Shown here in pieces: positions 51,957 to 57,689 of a stretch of 64,000 bases of DNA. This stretch comes from Verrucomicrobiales bacterium (GTDB lineage Bacteria > Verrucomicrobiota > Verrucomicrobiia > Limisphaerales > UBA9464), in contig JAIYBC010000066.1 in assembly GCA_027488845.1 (NCBI GenBank), positions 1-64,000 of the forward strand, given 5' to 3'. Every line of letters starts with the position of its first letter. The first letter of the stretch is position 1. The notes beneath the pieces are model-generated. The model was given only the letters and a program-made list of their open reading frames with translations, had not been told where the DNA came from and searched no databases. The translations under genes were made by a program, and so were the position numbers.

Positions 51957-53375
51957 TCAGTCGGTCCGGATTCCCGGGGGACGAATGCCCCGGCCAACCC
52001 GTGGCGGGGACGAATCGCCGAGGTCGTCGCGCATGGCCTCCGCAAGTGAACTCAGGTGGGACACGACCTCCGGATGGAGTCCGGCGACGTCCCGCGATTC
52101 GGTTGGATCGGTCGAAAGATCGTACAACGAAAGGCCGATCTGACCGTTTCGGAGCACGCCCGGCCATCCGCCCGATCCGGTCTTCTCGAGGACCAGGTGT
52201 GGGTGTGGAAAATGGAGTTTCCAACGGCCTGCGCGTACGGCGTCGAGGTGGGTTCCCCAGTACATGAACTGCGCCCGACGCGGCGCCCGTGCGTTCCTTT
52301 CCTGGAAGAGCAGGGGAGACAGGTCGCCGCCGTCGATCACCGGCCTGGCGGGGATCGAAGCACCCGACACGTGGGCGAGCGTCGGAAGGAGGTCGATGGT
52401 TCCCGCCACCTCCCGGCAGACCGTTCCGGACGGAATCCTCCCCGGCCATCGGAAGATCGCCGGCACGCGCATGCCTCCCTCGAAGCTGGTGCCTTTCGTC
52501 CCCCGCAGGCCGCCGGTGGAACCCGCGTGGTCGCCGTACACCGACCAGGGACCGTTGTCCGACGTGAAGATGACCAGGGTCTCCCGGTCCAGCCGCTCCT
52601 CTTTCAGGGTCTGCATCACGGTCCCGACCGAGGCGTCGATTTCGTGGATCACGTCCGCATAGCTTCCGAGACCGGTGCGGCCGGCGAATTCCGGCGAGGG
52701 GAAGATGGGGACGTGCGGCATGCTGTGGGCAAGGTACAGGAAGAACGGGCGGTCCCGGTTGCGTCGGATGAAGTCCACGGACCGCTGTGTGTAGCGCCGC
52801 GTCAGCCGGGCCTGTTCCGGCATCGTCTCCGCCACCCGTTCACCGTCGTAGAGCGGCAGGTCCGGATACTGGCGAGCCGTCGGGTGATGCGGCCACATGT
52901 CGTTCGAGTACGGCAGTCCCAGCCATTCGTCGAACCCATGCCGCGTGGGCAGGAACGCAGGCGAGTCCCCGAGATGCCATTTGCCGACGATCGCGGTCGA
53001 GTAGGCACGCGTCTTGAGGAGCTCCGCGATGGTGGTCTCGGCTGCCGAAAGGCCGGTCTTCGAACCCGGGCCAAGCGCGCCTTGGATCCCGACCCTTCCT
53101 GGGTAGCAGCCGGTGAGCAACGCGGCACGGGACGCGGAACACACGGCTTGGCCCACGTAGAAGTCCGTGAACCGCATGCCCTGCGCGGCGAGGCGGTCGA
53201 TGTTCGGGGTCGGGATGCGCGAGCCGTAGCAGCCGAGGTCGCCGTAGCCGAGGTCGTCGCAGAAGATGAGGACCACGTTCGGCGTCCGGCGGGAGGTTTC
53301 CGCGGCCTTCAGGCGGAATCCGGCGACGAGCGGGAGGAGGATCAGGAATCGGAGTGCGACTTGGGACCAACGCAT
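51957..53375 (-). CDS. Secreted sulfatase with CSASR active-site motif
   Basis: The 472-residue protein has a signal peptide (MRWSQVALRFLILLPLVAG) and a type I sulfatase fold: NVVLIFCDDLGYGDLGCYG (metal-binding Asp pair), the nucleophile region AVCSASRAALLTG (Cys79), GKWHLG, and FTSDNGPWSVYGDH. The active-site motif is C-S-A-S-R rather than the canonical C-x-P-S-R. It should hydrolyse sulfate esters in the periplasm or outside the cell after conversion of Cys79 to formylglycine. Substrate unknown. It is divergent from the second sulfatase. Confidence 0.9.
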   Translation of the reverse strand: MRWSQVALRFLILLPLVAGFRLKAAETSRRTPNVVLIFCDDLGYGDLGCYGSRIPTPNIDRLAAQGMRFTDFYVGQAVCSASRAALLTGCYPGRVGIQGALGPGSKTGLSAAETTIAELLKTRAYSTAIVGKWHLGDSPAFLPTRHGFDEWLGLPYSNDMWPHHPTARQYPDLPLYDGERVAETMPEQARLTRRYTQRSVDFIRRNRDRPFFLYLAHSMPHVPIFPSPEFAGRTGLGSYADVIHEIDASVGTVMQTLKEERLDRETLVIFTSDNGPWSVYGDHAGSTGGLRGTKGTSFEGGMRVPAIFRWPGRIPSGTVCREVAGTIDLLPTLAHVSGASIPARPVIDGGDLSPLLFQERNARAPRRAQFMYWGTHLDAVRAGRWKLHFPHPHLVLEKTGSGGWPGVLRNGQIGLSLYDLSTDPTESRDVAGLHPEVVSHLSSLAEAMRDDLGDSSPPRVGRGIRPPGIRTD

Positions 53376-53469: not shown

Positions 53470-55077
53470 ATGCTTCGCCCGATGAACTCCCCCTCGATGC
53501 TCCGGTTCCTCGGAGGGTTCCGACGCTTCCTGCCCCTGCTGACCGCGCTTCTGTCGGCCGCTGGATCGAGGACGGATGCCGCCCCCAGCCAACCCAACAT
53601 CCTGTTCATCCTCAGCGACGACCATGCGGCCAAGGCCATCAGCGCCTACGGCAGCCCGTGGAACAAGACTCCCGGATTGGATCGGTTGGCGCGGGAAGGC
53701 ATGCGGCTGGACCGCTGCTACGCGGTGAATTCCATCTGCACACCCAGCCGCGCATCGATCCTCACCGGCCAATACGGCCATCGGAACGGCGTTCCGGTCT
53801 TCAACAACCTCGATCCTTCCGCGACGACCGTCGCCCACCGGTTGCGGCAGGCCGGTTACCACACGGCCATGTTGGGCAAGTGGCACCTGGGGTCCGAACC
53901 CCAGGGCTTCGACGAATGGAACATCCTCCCGGGGCAGGGCCGCTACCAGGACCCGGTGTTCTACGACCGCGACGGCCACCGCATCTACCGCGGACACGTC
54001 TCGGACGTCACGACGGACCTCGCGATCCGGATGCTGGAGAAGCGCCCGAAGGACAAGCCGTTCTTCCTGATGTGCCATCACAAGGCTCCCCATCGGAATT
54101 GGTCTCCGGCGGAGCGGCACCGGCTCCAGTTCGCCGGAAGGGAGATCGCCGAGCCCGCGACGCTGCGCGACGACTACCGCGGTCGGTCGGATGCCTTGAG
54201 GCAGCAGCGCCAGAGCGTCTTCCGCGACCTGACCCGCAGGGACCTCAAGCTGGTCCCGCCGACGGATCTCCCAGCCAAGGGCGTGGGTGCATGGCTGGAT
54301 GAGGTGCCCGATGAAGTGGTGGTTCCCTCGGCGACGGGGCCGTTGACCCTCCGAGGCGAGGCGCTCGACCGGTGGAAGTACCAGCGCTACATGCAGGACT
54401 ACCTCGCCTGCGTGCAGGGAGTGGACGATGGCGTCGGCCGGTTGCTCGACTGGCTGGACAGCCAAGGACTGCGTGAGAACACGGTCGTGATCTACACCAG
54501 CGACCAAGGCTTCTTCCTCGGCGAGCACGGGCTCTATGACAAGCGGTTCATGTATGAGCCCTCCATCCGGATGCCGTTCCTGATCCGTTGGCCGGGCGTG
54601 ATCGCCGCCGGTTCCACGAGCGAAGCGTTGTCCATCAACTGCGACTTCGCACCGACCTTCCTCGAGATGGCGGGTGCCCCGGCGGCTCCGGAAATGCAGG
54701 GGCGGAGCCTGGTCCCCATCCTGAAGGGCCGCCGTCCCGCCGACTGGCGATCCGGGTTCTACTACCGCTACTACCACGATCCCGGCCACCACGACACGCG
54801 GGCGCACTACGGGATCCGGACCGACACCCACAAGCTGATCCACTACTGGAAGCTGGACCAGTGGGAGATGTACGACCTCGTCGCGGACCCGGACGAGATG
54901 ACCAACCGGGTCGCCGATCCCTCCATGGCCGCGGTGTTGACCGACCTCAAGTCGAGGCTCGTGACGGAACGGCAGCGGCTCGGCGACACCAACCAGTTCG
55001 CCAACCTGCTTCCCCGTGACACGGTGGACCAGCGGCCGAAGCAGATGGACCGGAAGCATCCGGATTCCGAACTCTGA
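53470..55077 (+). CDS. Secreted sulfatase with canonical CTPSR motif
   Basis: The 535-residue protein has a signal-like N-terminus (LGGFRRFLPLLTALLSAAGS), then NILFILSDDHAAKAISAYG (metal Asp pair), SICTPSRASILTG (nucleophile Cys90), GKWHLG and YTSDQGFFLGEHGLYDKRFM. It belongs to type I sulfatases of the kind that act on glycan sulfates. Starts at 53470, 53482 and 53497 are all possible; 53470 is given. It faces the FGE gene across a 177-bp gap in which I saw no gene. Confidence 0.9.
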   Translation: MLRPMNSPSMLRFLGGFRRFLPLLTALLSAAGSRTDAAPSQPNILFILSDDHAAKAISAYGSPWNKTPGLDRLAREGMRLDRCYAVNSICTPSRASILTGQYGHRNGVPVFNNLDPSATTVAHRLRQAGYHTAMLGKWHLGSEPQGFDEWNILPGQGRYQDPVFYDRDGHRIYRGHVSDVTTDLAIRMLEKRPKDKPFFLMCHHKAPHRNWSPAERHRLQFAGREIAEPATLRDDYRGRSDALRQQRQSVFRDLTRRDLKLVPPTDLPAKGVGAWLDEVPDEVVVPSATGPLTLRGEALDRWKYQRYMQDYLACVQGVDDGVGRLLDWLDSQGLRENTVVIYTSDQGFFLGEHGLYDKRFMYEPSIRMPFLIRWPGVIAAGSTSEALSINCDFAPTFLEMAGAPAAPEMQGRSLVPILKGRRPADWRSGFYYRYYHDPGHHDTRAHYGIRTDTHKLIHYWKLDQWEMYDLVADPDEMTNRVADPSMAAVLTDLKSRLVTERQRLGDTNQFANLLPRDTVDQRPKQMDRKHPDSEL

Positions 55078-55254: not shown

Positions 55255-56415
55255 CTACGAAGCGGGTACGGCAGGCGTTCTCGGAACAGCGACTCGGACG
55301 CAGCGGAAACCGACATGGTTGGAGCCCGTGTCGACGGCGCCCTTGCCGCGGGTTCCGAGGAGGAACCTCGAGCAGTATTGGGCCGAACAGAGGAAGGAAC
55401 CTCCGCGGTGCACCCGCTTCCGTACGCCCGGTTCGTCGGGGTCGAAGCTGGTGGGAGGACCTTGGGGATTGACCTCGGAAGCGACCGCGGCGAGCCGGTA
55501 GGTGTCGGGGCGATACCAGTCGGAACACCACTCCCAGACATTGCCGGACATGTCCCGAAGGCCGTAGCCGTTTGGCGGGAAACTCCCCACGGGAGCCGCT
55601 CCCCGGAAGCCGTCCTCGCCGTTGTCCCCGCCCGGGAAGGGGCCTTGGAACGCGTTGCATTGCCAACGTCCGTCGACGAGCAGCGTGTTTCCCCATGGGT
55701 AGGGCTGGCTTTCGAGCCCACCGCGCGCGGCGCGTTCCCATTCCGCCTCGGTCGGCAAACGCTTCCCAGCCCACCGTGCGTAGGTTTCGGCATCCTCGAA
55801 GGCCACATGGACCACCGGATTTCGCATCCTTCCCTCGATGGAGGATCCGGGTCCTTCGGGATGACGCCAGCTGGCGCCGGGCACATAGCGCCACCAGGCG
55901 AGTGGATTCTCGTGGGTGACGGGTTCGGTCGGCGGATGGAACACGACCGAGCCCGGCACCAGAAGGGAGGGGTCGGCATCCGGGAACTCGGCCGGATCTG
56001 GGCGCCGTTCGGCCACGGTGACATAGCCGGTGGCGTCGGCGAATCGCCGGAACTCCTCGTTGGTGACCTCCGTGCGGTCCATCCAAAAGCCGTCCACACG
56101 CACACGGTGGGCGGGGCCTGAGTCCCGGAATCCGTCGACCAGGCCGCTACAGACGGGTTCGCCGGGCTGAAGCCGTGAACGGACCGCCGAGATGGAGGCG
56201 TCGTCGGGGCCTCCCATCCAGAACTCTCCGCCCGGGATCCACACCATGCCGTCGTCGGCCACGGACCCCATCGCCACCGTGTTGGTGGCGATTACCGGCG
56301 CCGGGGACGGCTGGACAGGGGAAGCCGGTTCCGAAGGCCCGCATCCCGTCAGCAGGGCGGCGAACAGCGCCGCGATCCGGTGCGGCTTCGCACTTTGGCG
56401 AGGGCCACGCTTCAT
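55255..56415 (-). CDS. Exported formylglycine-generating enzyme (lipoprotein)
   Basis: The 386-residue protein has a lipoprotein signal (LFAALLTGC) and then the FGE/sulfatase-modifying fold: MVWIPGGEFWMGG, GFWMDRTEVTNEEFRRF, RLPTEAEWERAARGG, YGLRDMSGNVWEWCSDWY and RGGSFLCSAQYCSRF. The last holds Cys343 and Cys348, spaced as the copper-binding catalytic pair of aerobic FGE (Cys336/Cys341 in the human enzyme). It should convert sulfatase cysteines to formylglycine; the two sulfatases next door are the obvious clients. It lies 14 bp after the EboE-like gene. Confidence 0.87.
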   Translation of the reverse strand: MKRGPRQSAKPHRIAALFAALLTGCGPSEPASPVQPSPAPVIATNTVAMGSVADDGMVWIPGGEFWMGGPDDASISAVRSRLQPGEPVCSGLVDGFRDSGPAHRVRVDGFWMDRTEVTNEEFRRFADATGYVTVAERRPDPAEFPDADPSLLVPGSVVFHPPTEPVTHENPLAWWRYVPGASWRHPEGPGSSIEGRMRNPVVHVAFEDAETYARWAGKRLPTEAEWERAARGGLESQPYPWGNTLLVDGRWQCNAFQGPFPGGDNGEDGFRGAAPVGSFPPNGYGLRDMSGNVWEWCSDWYRPDTYRLAAVASEVNPQGPPTSFDPDEPGVRKRVHRGGSFLCSAQYCSRFLLGTRGKGAVDTGSNHVGFRCVRVAVPRTPAVPAS

Positions 56416-56429
56416 GGGACCGGCCACGT

Positions 56430-57605
56430 TCAAGGCCTTTGAAAACCGCGCTCGGCAAAGCGGGCGAGCGTCCACTCGTATTCGCCGACCAGCTGGTCGA
56501 CGACGTTGCGGTGCTTCAGGTCCGCGGGCATGACCTCCCAGGTGTAGGTCTCCATCTCGAAATGCTGGCAGAGGGAAGGCTGTTGACGGAGGACGTCCAG
56601 CACGCCGGTGAGGTGGTCGGCCGTGGTGCCGAACAGCGGCGTCGGAGCGGCGTGGAGCGGGATGTGGAAATGGATGCGCCACTCGCGTTCGAACTGCGGG
56701 CCGTCCGAGGGCAGGGTCGCCAAGGCCTCGTCGAGGTCCCCGTAACGCACCAGTTCGCCATCCGGGCGGCGTTCGATCACCTGGTGGAAGTAGATGTCGT
56801 CCGCGAAGCGCGCCAAGGCCTCGCGCGCCTCCGGGGTGGGGCGTACGGAGAGGGCGTTGCTGAGGTGGATCTTGCTGATGCGGATGCCGGCGCGGGTCAG
56901 GCGCGCGAGCGCCTCCTGGGGGCGTTCGTATTCGATCGCGAGGTGGCAGCAGTCGTAGTTGACGCCGAGGTGCGCATCGAGGCGGAGGTCCCCGGGGCGG
57001 TCCGCGCGCATGAGATGGAAGAACTCGACGCATTCCGGGGTGGACTCGAGGTGGCAGAGCGGTTCCGGTTCGAGGCCGAGATGGAGGTCCTTGCCGGTCT
57101 CGCGGGAGAGCCGTTCCAGGAACTCGACGCAGCGCCACAGTTGGTCGCGCGCCGTCTGGAGTTCGCGTTGGCTTCTCCGGAAGCCCTTGAACGAAACCGG
57201 CACCGTGCTCACCGAGCCCGACACGCCTTCGGGCACCAGCTGCGCAAGGATCCGGAACAGCCGTTCGGTGTAGGCGAGCCGTTCCGGTTGGCACCAGTCG
57301 GGGGCGTAGACCTGTTCCTTGACCCGGCCGCCATGGAATCGGCCGTAGGGGAATCCGTTGATCGTGAAGACGTAGGCGTCGTGCCGGGCGAGCCAACGCC
57401 GGAAGGCTTCCAACGTGCCCGGGTTGGAAAGCTCCGTGGCGGCGACGTCCCCAAGTCGGAGGCCGATCGCGTAGGGGCGTTCGCCTCCGATCCTGCGTCG
57501 TACCGCGAGTGTATGCTTCTCCAGCCCCGCGAAGGTCTCGGCCCACGTCTCGCCCCGGTGGATGTTCGTGCAGTAGGCCAGATGGACGCCGTGGGTGAGT
57601 TGCAT
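56430..57605 (-). CDS. EboE-like TIM-barrel protein
   Basis: The 391-residue cytosolic protein starts MQLTHGVHLAYCTNIHRGE and resembles EboE 'metabolite traffic' proteins and xylose-isomerase-type TIM barrels. Barrel residues include LGLEPEPLCHLEST, LGVNYDCCHLAIE, KIHLSNAL and WRIHFHIPLH, which could form a metal site with His, Asp and Glu. In known ebo clusters the protein works with EboABCD in moving a precursor to the periplasm; none of those partners is here. It is probably cotranscribed with the FGE gene. The real substrate is unknown. Confidence 0.7.
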   Translation of the reverse strand: MQLTHGVHLAYCTNIHRGETWAETFAGLEKHTLAVRRRIGGERPYAIGLRLGDVAATELSNPGTLEAFRRWLARHDAYVFTINGFPYGRFHGGRVKEQVYAPDWCQPERLAYTERLFRILAQLVPEGVSGSVSTVPVSFKGFRRSQRELQTARDQLWRCVEFLERLSRETGKDLHLGLEPEPLCHLESTPECVEFFHLMRADRPGDLRLDAHLGVNYDCCHLAIEYERPQEALARLTRAGIRISKIHLSNALSVRPTPEAREALARFADDIYFHQVIERRPDGELVRYGDLDEALATLPSDGPQFEREWRIHFHIPLHAAPTPLFGTTADHLTGVLDVLRQQPSLCQHFEMETYTWEVMPADLKHRNVVDQLVGEYEWTLARFAERGFQRP

Positions 57606-57689
57606 GGCGGGAGATTGCACCGTGGTGACGTCCCGGGAAAAAGGAAAAGCCCTCCTTTGCCGGGCATGGATATGGCTTAGGATCCCTCC

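Follow-up and report, generated by a model that had tools for sequence, protein, structure and literature searches.

A predicted exported and lipid-anchored formylglycine-generating enzyme in a Verrucomicrobiales bacterium and its relatives

In which compartment do bacteria with exported sulfatases generate formylglycine? The question is raised by a gene of a Verrucomicrobiales bacterium (GenBank assembly GCA_027488845.1, contig JAIYBC010000066.1) whose product combines the domain of a formylglycine-generating enzyme (FGE) with a putative lipoprotein signal. The window, i.e. the whole stretch of DNA that was analysed, comprises positions 1 to 64,000 of the contig; its relevant features are listed in Table 1. 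In the available text of PMC4505483, a study of the copper enzyme, prokaryotic FGE is placed in the reducing cytosol and it is asked how similar enzymes function there and in the ER; the original prediction had likewise regarded characterised bacterial FGE as cytoplasmic. Cys-type sulfatases are typically cytosolic according to the accessible part of a review (PMC3920027). An exported FGE contrasts with both placements. A description of an exported catalytic bacterial FGE was not found in the open-licence PMC literature, while subscription papers or databases may hold one.

Table 1. Features of the FGE locus within the window
Feature	Position	Strand	Basis or remark
FGE gene	55255..56415	minus	ORF, 386 aa + stop; PF03781, E 1e-75
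FGE catalytic domain, residues 57-375	55291..56247	minus	PDB alignments, PF03781, predicted model
Codon of catalytic Cys 343	55387..55389	minus	alignment to human and T. curvata FGE
Codon of catalytic Cys 348	55372..55374	minus	alignment to human and T. curvata FGE
Predicted lipoprotein signal, residues 1-25 (MKRGPRQSAKPHRIAALFAALLTGC)	56341..56415	minus	Cys 25 codon 56341-56343, +2 Gly
Cys-type sulfatase (ICTPSRASILTG) with Sec-like signal (MLRFLGGFRRFLPLLTALLSAAGSRTDAA)	53470..55077	plus	tail to tail with FGE gene; start picked by eye out of 53470, 53482 and 53497
Second Cys-type sulfatase (VCSASRAALLTG) with Sec-like signal (MRWSQVALRFLILLPLVAGFRLKAA)	51957..53375	minus	divergent from first sulfatase; start picked by eye
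EboE gene	56430..57668	minus	directly upstream of FGE on the same strand; own start uncertain; context only

Judged by its sequence, the window protein is a genuine FGE. The PF03781 match covered residues 55-374 with 255 bits at a cut-off of 23.3, and the nearest PDB structures were FGEs, namely those of T. curvata (6s07, E 5e-76), man (1y1e, E 3e-70) and S. coelicolor (2q17, E 8e-68). The AlphaFold model had a pLDDT of 78 and a pTM of 0.80; with this model as a query the top PDB matches of Foldseek were FGEs as well (E 3e-32, TM 0.84 on the target); the predicted fold is that of an FGE. C343 and C348, both already recognized in the original prediction, are part of GGSFLC-SAQY-C (RGGSFLCSAQYCSR), which conforms to the motif GGS-x2-C-x4-C, and were confirmed as the catalytic pair by alignment with human SUMF1 and T. 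curvata FGE. S340 and R356 are also retained.

Conceivably, the protein could be a non-catalytic structural lipoprotein, because FGE folds occur outside the cytoplasm in GldK/PorK and in OCTIN. PorK is the subject of PMC12421860, and the accessible part of PMC5915273 describes OCTIN as periplasmic and devoid of the catalytic cysteines. The GldK/PorK model TIGR03525 does match the window protein, yet the 137 bits are far below its cut-off of 350, and the scores with the EgtB, SenA and PvdO models were far below the respective cut-offs, too. Unlike OCTIN the window FGE has kept the Cys pair, along with S340 and R356, so a merely structural role appears very improbable.

The N-terminus of the window FGE (MKRGPRQSAKPHRIAALFAALLTGC) contains five K/R, a hydrophobic stretch and then LLTGC ending at Cys 25. 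These are the positive n-region, the hydrophobic h-region and the lipobox of a bacterial lipoprotein, and lipidation of Cys 25 is predicted. The lipobox, which had been pointed out before, is kept in the two closest orthologues L018 and L019 as LTGC and LAGC together with the ATG and the hydrophobic stretch. The cytosolic location reported for prokaryotic FGE is not a defining trait of the family and is contradicted here by the predicted export signal. Among the 176 signals called by the rule in the first batch of sequences (see below) just 6 had a twin-arginine-like motif, so Sec is the likely route. In E. coli the +2 rule is used for sorting lipoproteins between the membranes; with Gly at +2 the outer membrane would be the probable destination of the window FGE.

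A different reading of the N-terminus is that its first 48 residues are an artefact of gene calling and that the true protein is cytosolic. No clear ribosome-binding site was seen upstream of the ATG. The 25 signal codons of the window and of L019 differ by 15 bases, nine of them at third positions; six codons were changed silently and seven of the 13 changed codons alter the residue, which means that the precise residues are under weak selection. Furthermore, the export calls were made with a hydrophobicity rule of our own plus inspection, and the rule produced two likely false calls elsewhere (L405 and L434). N-terminal tails passed it at rates of 0.01-0.21 overall after shuffling; in the first class batch the rate was about 0.21 compared to 83 of 88 real tails. 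On the other hand, relatives with an identity of about 65% likewise possess the hydrophobic segment and Gly-Cys, and start and box are preserved in the two closest orthologues, where M49, an internal start that would drop the signal, is replaced by Thr. Gly-Cys follows the hydrophobic stretch in 17 of 17 listed loci, i.e. that of the window and 16 from the same genus and family, although in 7 of the 17 the box reads GWGC, APGC or AQGC and is not a textbook lipobox. Other loci of the same family have LTGC (L040) or a signal without a lipobox (L035, L036, L054 and L063), and further relatives have an ordinary signal peptide or are fixed by a membrane anchor. A spurious N-terminus is thus hardly to be expected.

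The original prediction had treated export as a trait of a single protein. This part did not hold, as exported FGE is widespread: in the order sample 46 of 46 FGEs were called exported (L020 and L071 by eye), and such enzymes are common in Verrucomicrobiota, Planctomycetota and Bacteroidota. Among cultured relatives, Flavobacterium defluvii (L077), with a single match at E 1e-20, has the exported type. With both batches of sequences pooled, export was assigned by the rule to 123 of 152 FGEs of the window's own class, to 37 of 42 from Planctomycetota, 29 of 29 from Bacteroidota and 0 of 19 from Actinomycetota. It was further assigned to 2 of 3 from one Cupriavidus genome, the fourth gene of which was counted in the sample of named species, and to 35 of 64 from that sample. 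Inspection raised the numbers of exported FGEs by five for the class, by two for Planctomycetota and by three for the species sample and took two away from the class, where 26 of 152 look cytosolic after these changes. The additions missed by the rule were L020, L058, L071, L177, L186, L292, L096, L103 (the contig of which begins inside the signal) and L118 in the first batch and L441 in the second.

The first batch consisted of the best-scoring matches with a floor of 140 bits. Its 246 frames included 239 with the Cys pair; after removal of seven duplicates and one cut N-terminus 231 were kept, and 83 of 88 class FGEs were called exported. The second batch, with a floor of 120 bits, combined 66 class matches of lower score with 14 of the 16 matches left over from Planctomycetota, i.e. 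80 frames, of which 78 were kept since L397 and L429 lacked the pair. It exposed a second, signal-less type of FGE, mostly with a CC-containing N-terminus, and the rule called 40 of 64 exported in the class and 10 of 14 in Planctomycetota. Genomes with a match at E 1e-40 numbered 29 of 198 in Bacteroidota, 14 of 149 in Actinomycetota and 41 of 148 in Planctomycetota; the loci sampled lean to the better-scoring ones.

At the level of genomes, a threshold of E 1e-45 gave an FGE-like match in 121 of the 286 members of the class sample. Exported FGEs only were present in 91 of these, cytosolic ones only in 13 and both in 11; six were not classified because their matches were not fetched, were cut or lacked the pair. 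The anaerobic maturase (TIGR03942) was detected in 22 of the 121 genomes and in none of the other 99, and 77 of 121 combined exported FGE only with absence of this maturase. If L405 and L434, which look false on inspection, are counted as false, the genomes G186 and G070 (both with the maturase) become cytosolic only, which changes the counts to 89 exported-only and 15 cytosolic-only genomes.

Two records deserve a comment. G316, recorded as Cupriavidus pauculus (L092), has four FGE-like matches, of which L210 is without a signal and the others were called exported; this bacterium may serve both compartments with its FGEs. L073 is titled Akkermansia muciniphila and equals a contig of G006, a member of the window's own genus, in extent (18196) and match position. 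The species label of L073 is doubtful.

The two types of FGE were also compared in their cysteines outside of the catalytic pair. C89 was present in 64 of 185 exported and in 0 of 46 cytosolic FGEs among the first 231 sequences. It sits in an insert that is missing from all 46 cytosolic FGEs and from 117 of the 185 exported ones, and it falls in a low-confidence loop of the AlphaFold model. C372 accompanied C89 in 64 of 64 cases and was found in 85 of 121 exported FGEs without C89. A C89-C372 pair would fit a disulfide formed outside of the cytoplasm. Strong as it is, the 64/64 association was rejected as proof in view of the kinship of the sequences and the poor model of the loop.

The N-terminal tails of signal-less FGEs (for example L130, L253, L400, L411 and L428) often contain a CC motif such as CCTPAR, CCAPSR or CCSPSR, which is similar to the sulfatase motif CxPxR. 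CC occurred in 47 of 73 signal-less tails with 4.7 expected from shuffling versus 18 of 236 exported ones with 6.3 expected. The N-terminal extension of human FGE carries a similar CGC stretch. The CC motif could be a redox relay or a pseudo-substrate. Some exported FGEs (L221, L223, L224, L226, L227, L177, L082 and L086) have C-x1..6-P-x-R between signal and core, for example CHSGVPSR, CMRVPSR and CCDRIPSR, again resembling the sulfatase site; in Bacteroidota this applied to 5 of 29 exported FGEs, with 0.19 expected on shuffling.

If the window FGE were exported, what would mature the sulfatases of the organism? The source genome G000 is a draft of 5.39 Mb in 69 contigs and 95% complete. It codes for three PF03781 proteins, and the window FGE is the only one with the Cys pair. 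The FGE domains without the pair belong to L002, which also has two CxxCH motifs, and to L003 with a caspase-like N-terminal region as seen on inspection. The L002 gene (1360-3114) adjoins an oxidoreductase-like gene by inspection, and in L003 (10-2166) the FGE domain is C-terminal to the caspase-like region. A search for the anaerobic maturase (TIGR03942) in the draft gave no match. Of 13 PF00884 matches in G000 eight have a sulfatase-type Cys motif and five do not. All eight Cys-type sulfatases (L004-L011) showed a hydrophobic N-terminal signal upon inspection, and two of them adjoin the FGE gene, one with CxAxR in place of CxPxR. On the other side of the FGE gene the EboE stop is located about 14 bases ahead of the FGE start.

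The one-contig genome of a relative, G247, gave a similar picture. Its sole FGE with the Cys pair (L057) has a signal, its other four PF03781 proteins are without the pair by motif, and the L057 gene directly precedes sulfatase genes. Five Cys-type sulfatases are encoded; inspection of their N-terminal stretches yielded a clear signal in four and a likely one in L194. One more sulfatase-like protein is signal-less and has no cysteine at the motif.

Counts of exported sulfatases are given in the accessible parts of several papers. The numbers are 354 of 521 and 339 of 480 in Kiritimatiellales (PMC6388578), 158 of 165 in Pontiella (PMC10880615) and 79 of 122, 91 of 129 and 10 of 20 in three planctomycetes (PMC4807772); the parts of PMC6388578 and PMC10880615 at hand count FGEs and give no location for them. 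We inspected up to about 8 kb on each side of 80 FGE genes, 60 of them exported-FGE loci of Bacteroidota, Planctomycetota and the own class and 20 actinobacterial, and excluded 18 sulfatase-like matches without the motif. A Cys-type sulfatase was located within 8 kb in 19 of 60 exported-FGE and 12 of 20 actinobacterial loci. The rule found a signal on 22 of 27 Cys-type sulfatases beside exported FGEs and on 0 of 12 beside actinobacterial ones; the Fisher p of 1.6e-6 ignores kinship, and the comparison is confounded with phylum, the cytosolic FGEs with long flanks being from Actinomycetota only and not those inside the own class. Upon wider inspection the five rule misses all had a signal, resulting in 27 of 27 versus 0 of 12. 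With shorter flanks the rule gave 11 of 13 near exported (exceptions L132 and L284) and 0 of 6 near cytosolic FGEs. As predicted from these sequences, the compartment of the FGE matches that of the neighbouring sulfatases across phyla.

A tree of 312 rows required six changes of the export label, by-eye additions included, compared to 66.6 after shuffling. Its supports are of the local kind, and of its 308 inner branches 92 are open. The window protein belongs to a starred clade of 74 rows, every one of them counted as exported. The clade that holds human and T. curvata FGE has 52 rows; 49 of them were called cytosolic, and the two exported ones are L405 and L434. A smaller tree of 123 rows required three changes versus 38 after shuffling, six with machine calls alone and two with L118 as exported. 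Descent of the ER enzyme from the exported bacterial type was considered and rejected because human FGE sits in the mostly cytosolic clade. By the same token ER location and bacterial export look like separate moves.

Taken together, we consider it likely that the window FGE is a genuine copper-dependent FGE that passes through Sec, is lipidated at Cys 25 and activates exported sulfatases outside of the cytoplasm. The earlier suggestion of modification outside the cytoplasm agrees with the signal conserved in relatives, the lack of a second maturase in our searches, the eight exported-looking sulfatases and the match of compartments. The enzyme would be anchored to a membrane, probably the outer one, and face the periplasm, where it would fold and bind Cu(I), presumably loaded there, via C343 and C348. 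With O2 it would then convert the cysteine of the motif (CxPxR, in one neighbour CxAxR) to formylglycine, and its putative substrates, the sulfatases arriving through Sec, would be modified before or during folding. While family, Cys pair, predicted fold, signal, search for maturases and sulfatase signals are all read from sequence, we infer location, lipidation, copper loading, the identity of the substrates and the reductant.

Alternatively, the signal may be real and the sulfatases may nevertheless be modified in the cytoplasm, either by the FGE precursor prior to its export or by a second product from an internal start at M49 or M57. Systems with anSME mature exported sulfatases in the cytoplasm. 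M57 opens the conserved MVWIPGG near the position where signal-less FGEs start, whereas M49 is a Thr in both nearest orthologues, as mentioned above. According to the accessible text of PMC8746622 co-expression with M. tuberculosis FGE in E. coli led to conversion of a signal-less sulfatase from Pedobacter (Bacteroidota), indicating that cytosolic conversion of such sulfatases is possible. Yet the neighbouring sulfatases share the predicted compartment of the FGE. Moreover, Sec moves chains unfolded, so the FGE precursor should not be an active copper enzyme. We regard modification in the cytoplasm as unlikely. Still less probable is an exported FGE with another envelope protein as its main target. 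The substrate motif is short, which would permit such a role, but Cys-type sulfatases flank the gene in the window as well as in 19 of 60 exported-FGE loci within 8 kb, and for the eight sulfatases of the draft G000 no other maturase was found. Thus we favor the view that exported sulfatases are activated by the exported FGE.

On balance we are inclined to extend this view to a large share of the bacteria with an outer membrane, namely Verrucomicrobiota, Planctomycetota, Bacteroidota and some Burkholderiales. There, exported and often lipid-anchored copper FGEs would activate Cys-type sulfatases outside of the cytoplasm with few switches of compartment, the sulfatases would follow the FGE, and the ER location would be an independent parallel. 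Many Cys-type sulfatases of these phyla look exported, and an exported FGE would explain their activation. If so, the envelope is a site of formylglycine modification, which raises the question of the electron source there, and sulfatase activation is situated in the compartment where O2 and copper arrive.

How does the window FGE compare with known systems? The anaerobic maturase anSME (TIGR03942) also makes formylglycine in sulfatases, but is a radical-SAM enzyme and belongs to another family. GldK/PorK and OCTIN share the FGE fold and a place outside of the cytoplasm with the window FGE, GldK/PorK being lipoproteins by name. The FGEs of T. curvata and S. coelicolor (6s07, 5nxl, 2q17 and 6muj) have fold, Cys pair and GGS-x2-C-x4-C motif in common with the window enzyme; identity is 50% over the core for T. 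curvata and 43-45% for T. curvata and S. coelicolor in structure alignments. T. curvata FGE groups with the signal-less type, whereas the window FGE has the export signal and the C89 insert. Human SUMF1 (1y1e) possesses the same domain with 46% identity over the core, carries a signal peptide where the window FGE has a predicted lipoprotein signal and, according to the part of PMC4505483 available, acts outside of the cytosol on secretory sulfatases, as we propose for the window FGE.
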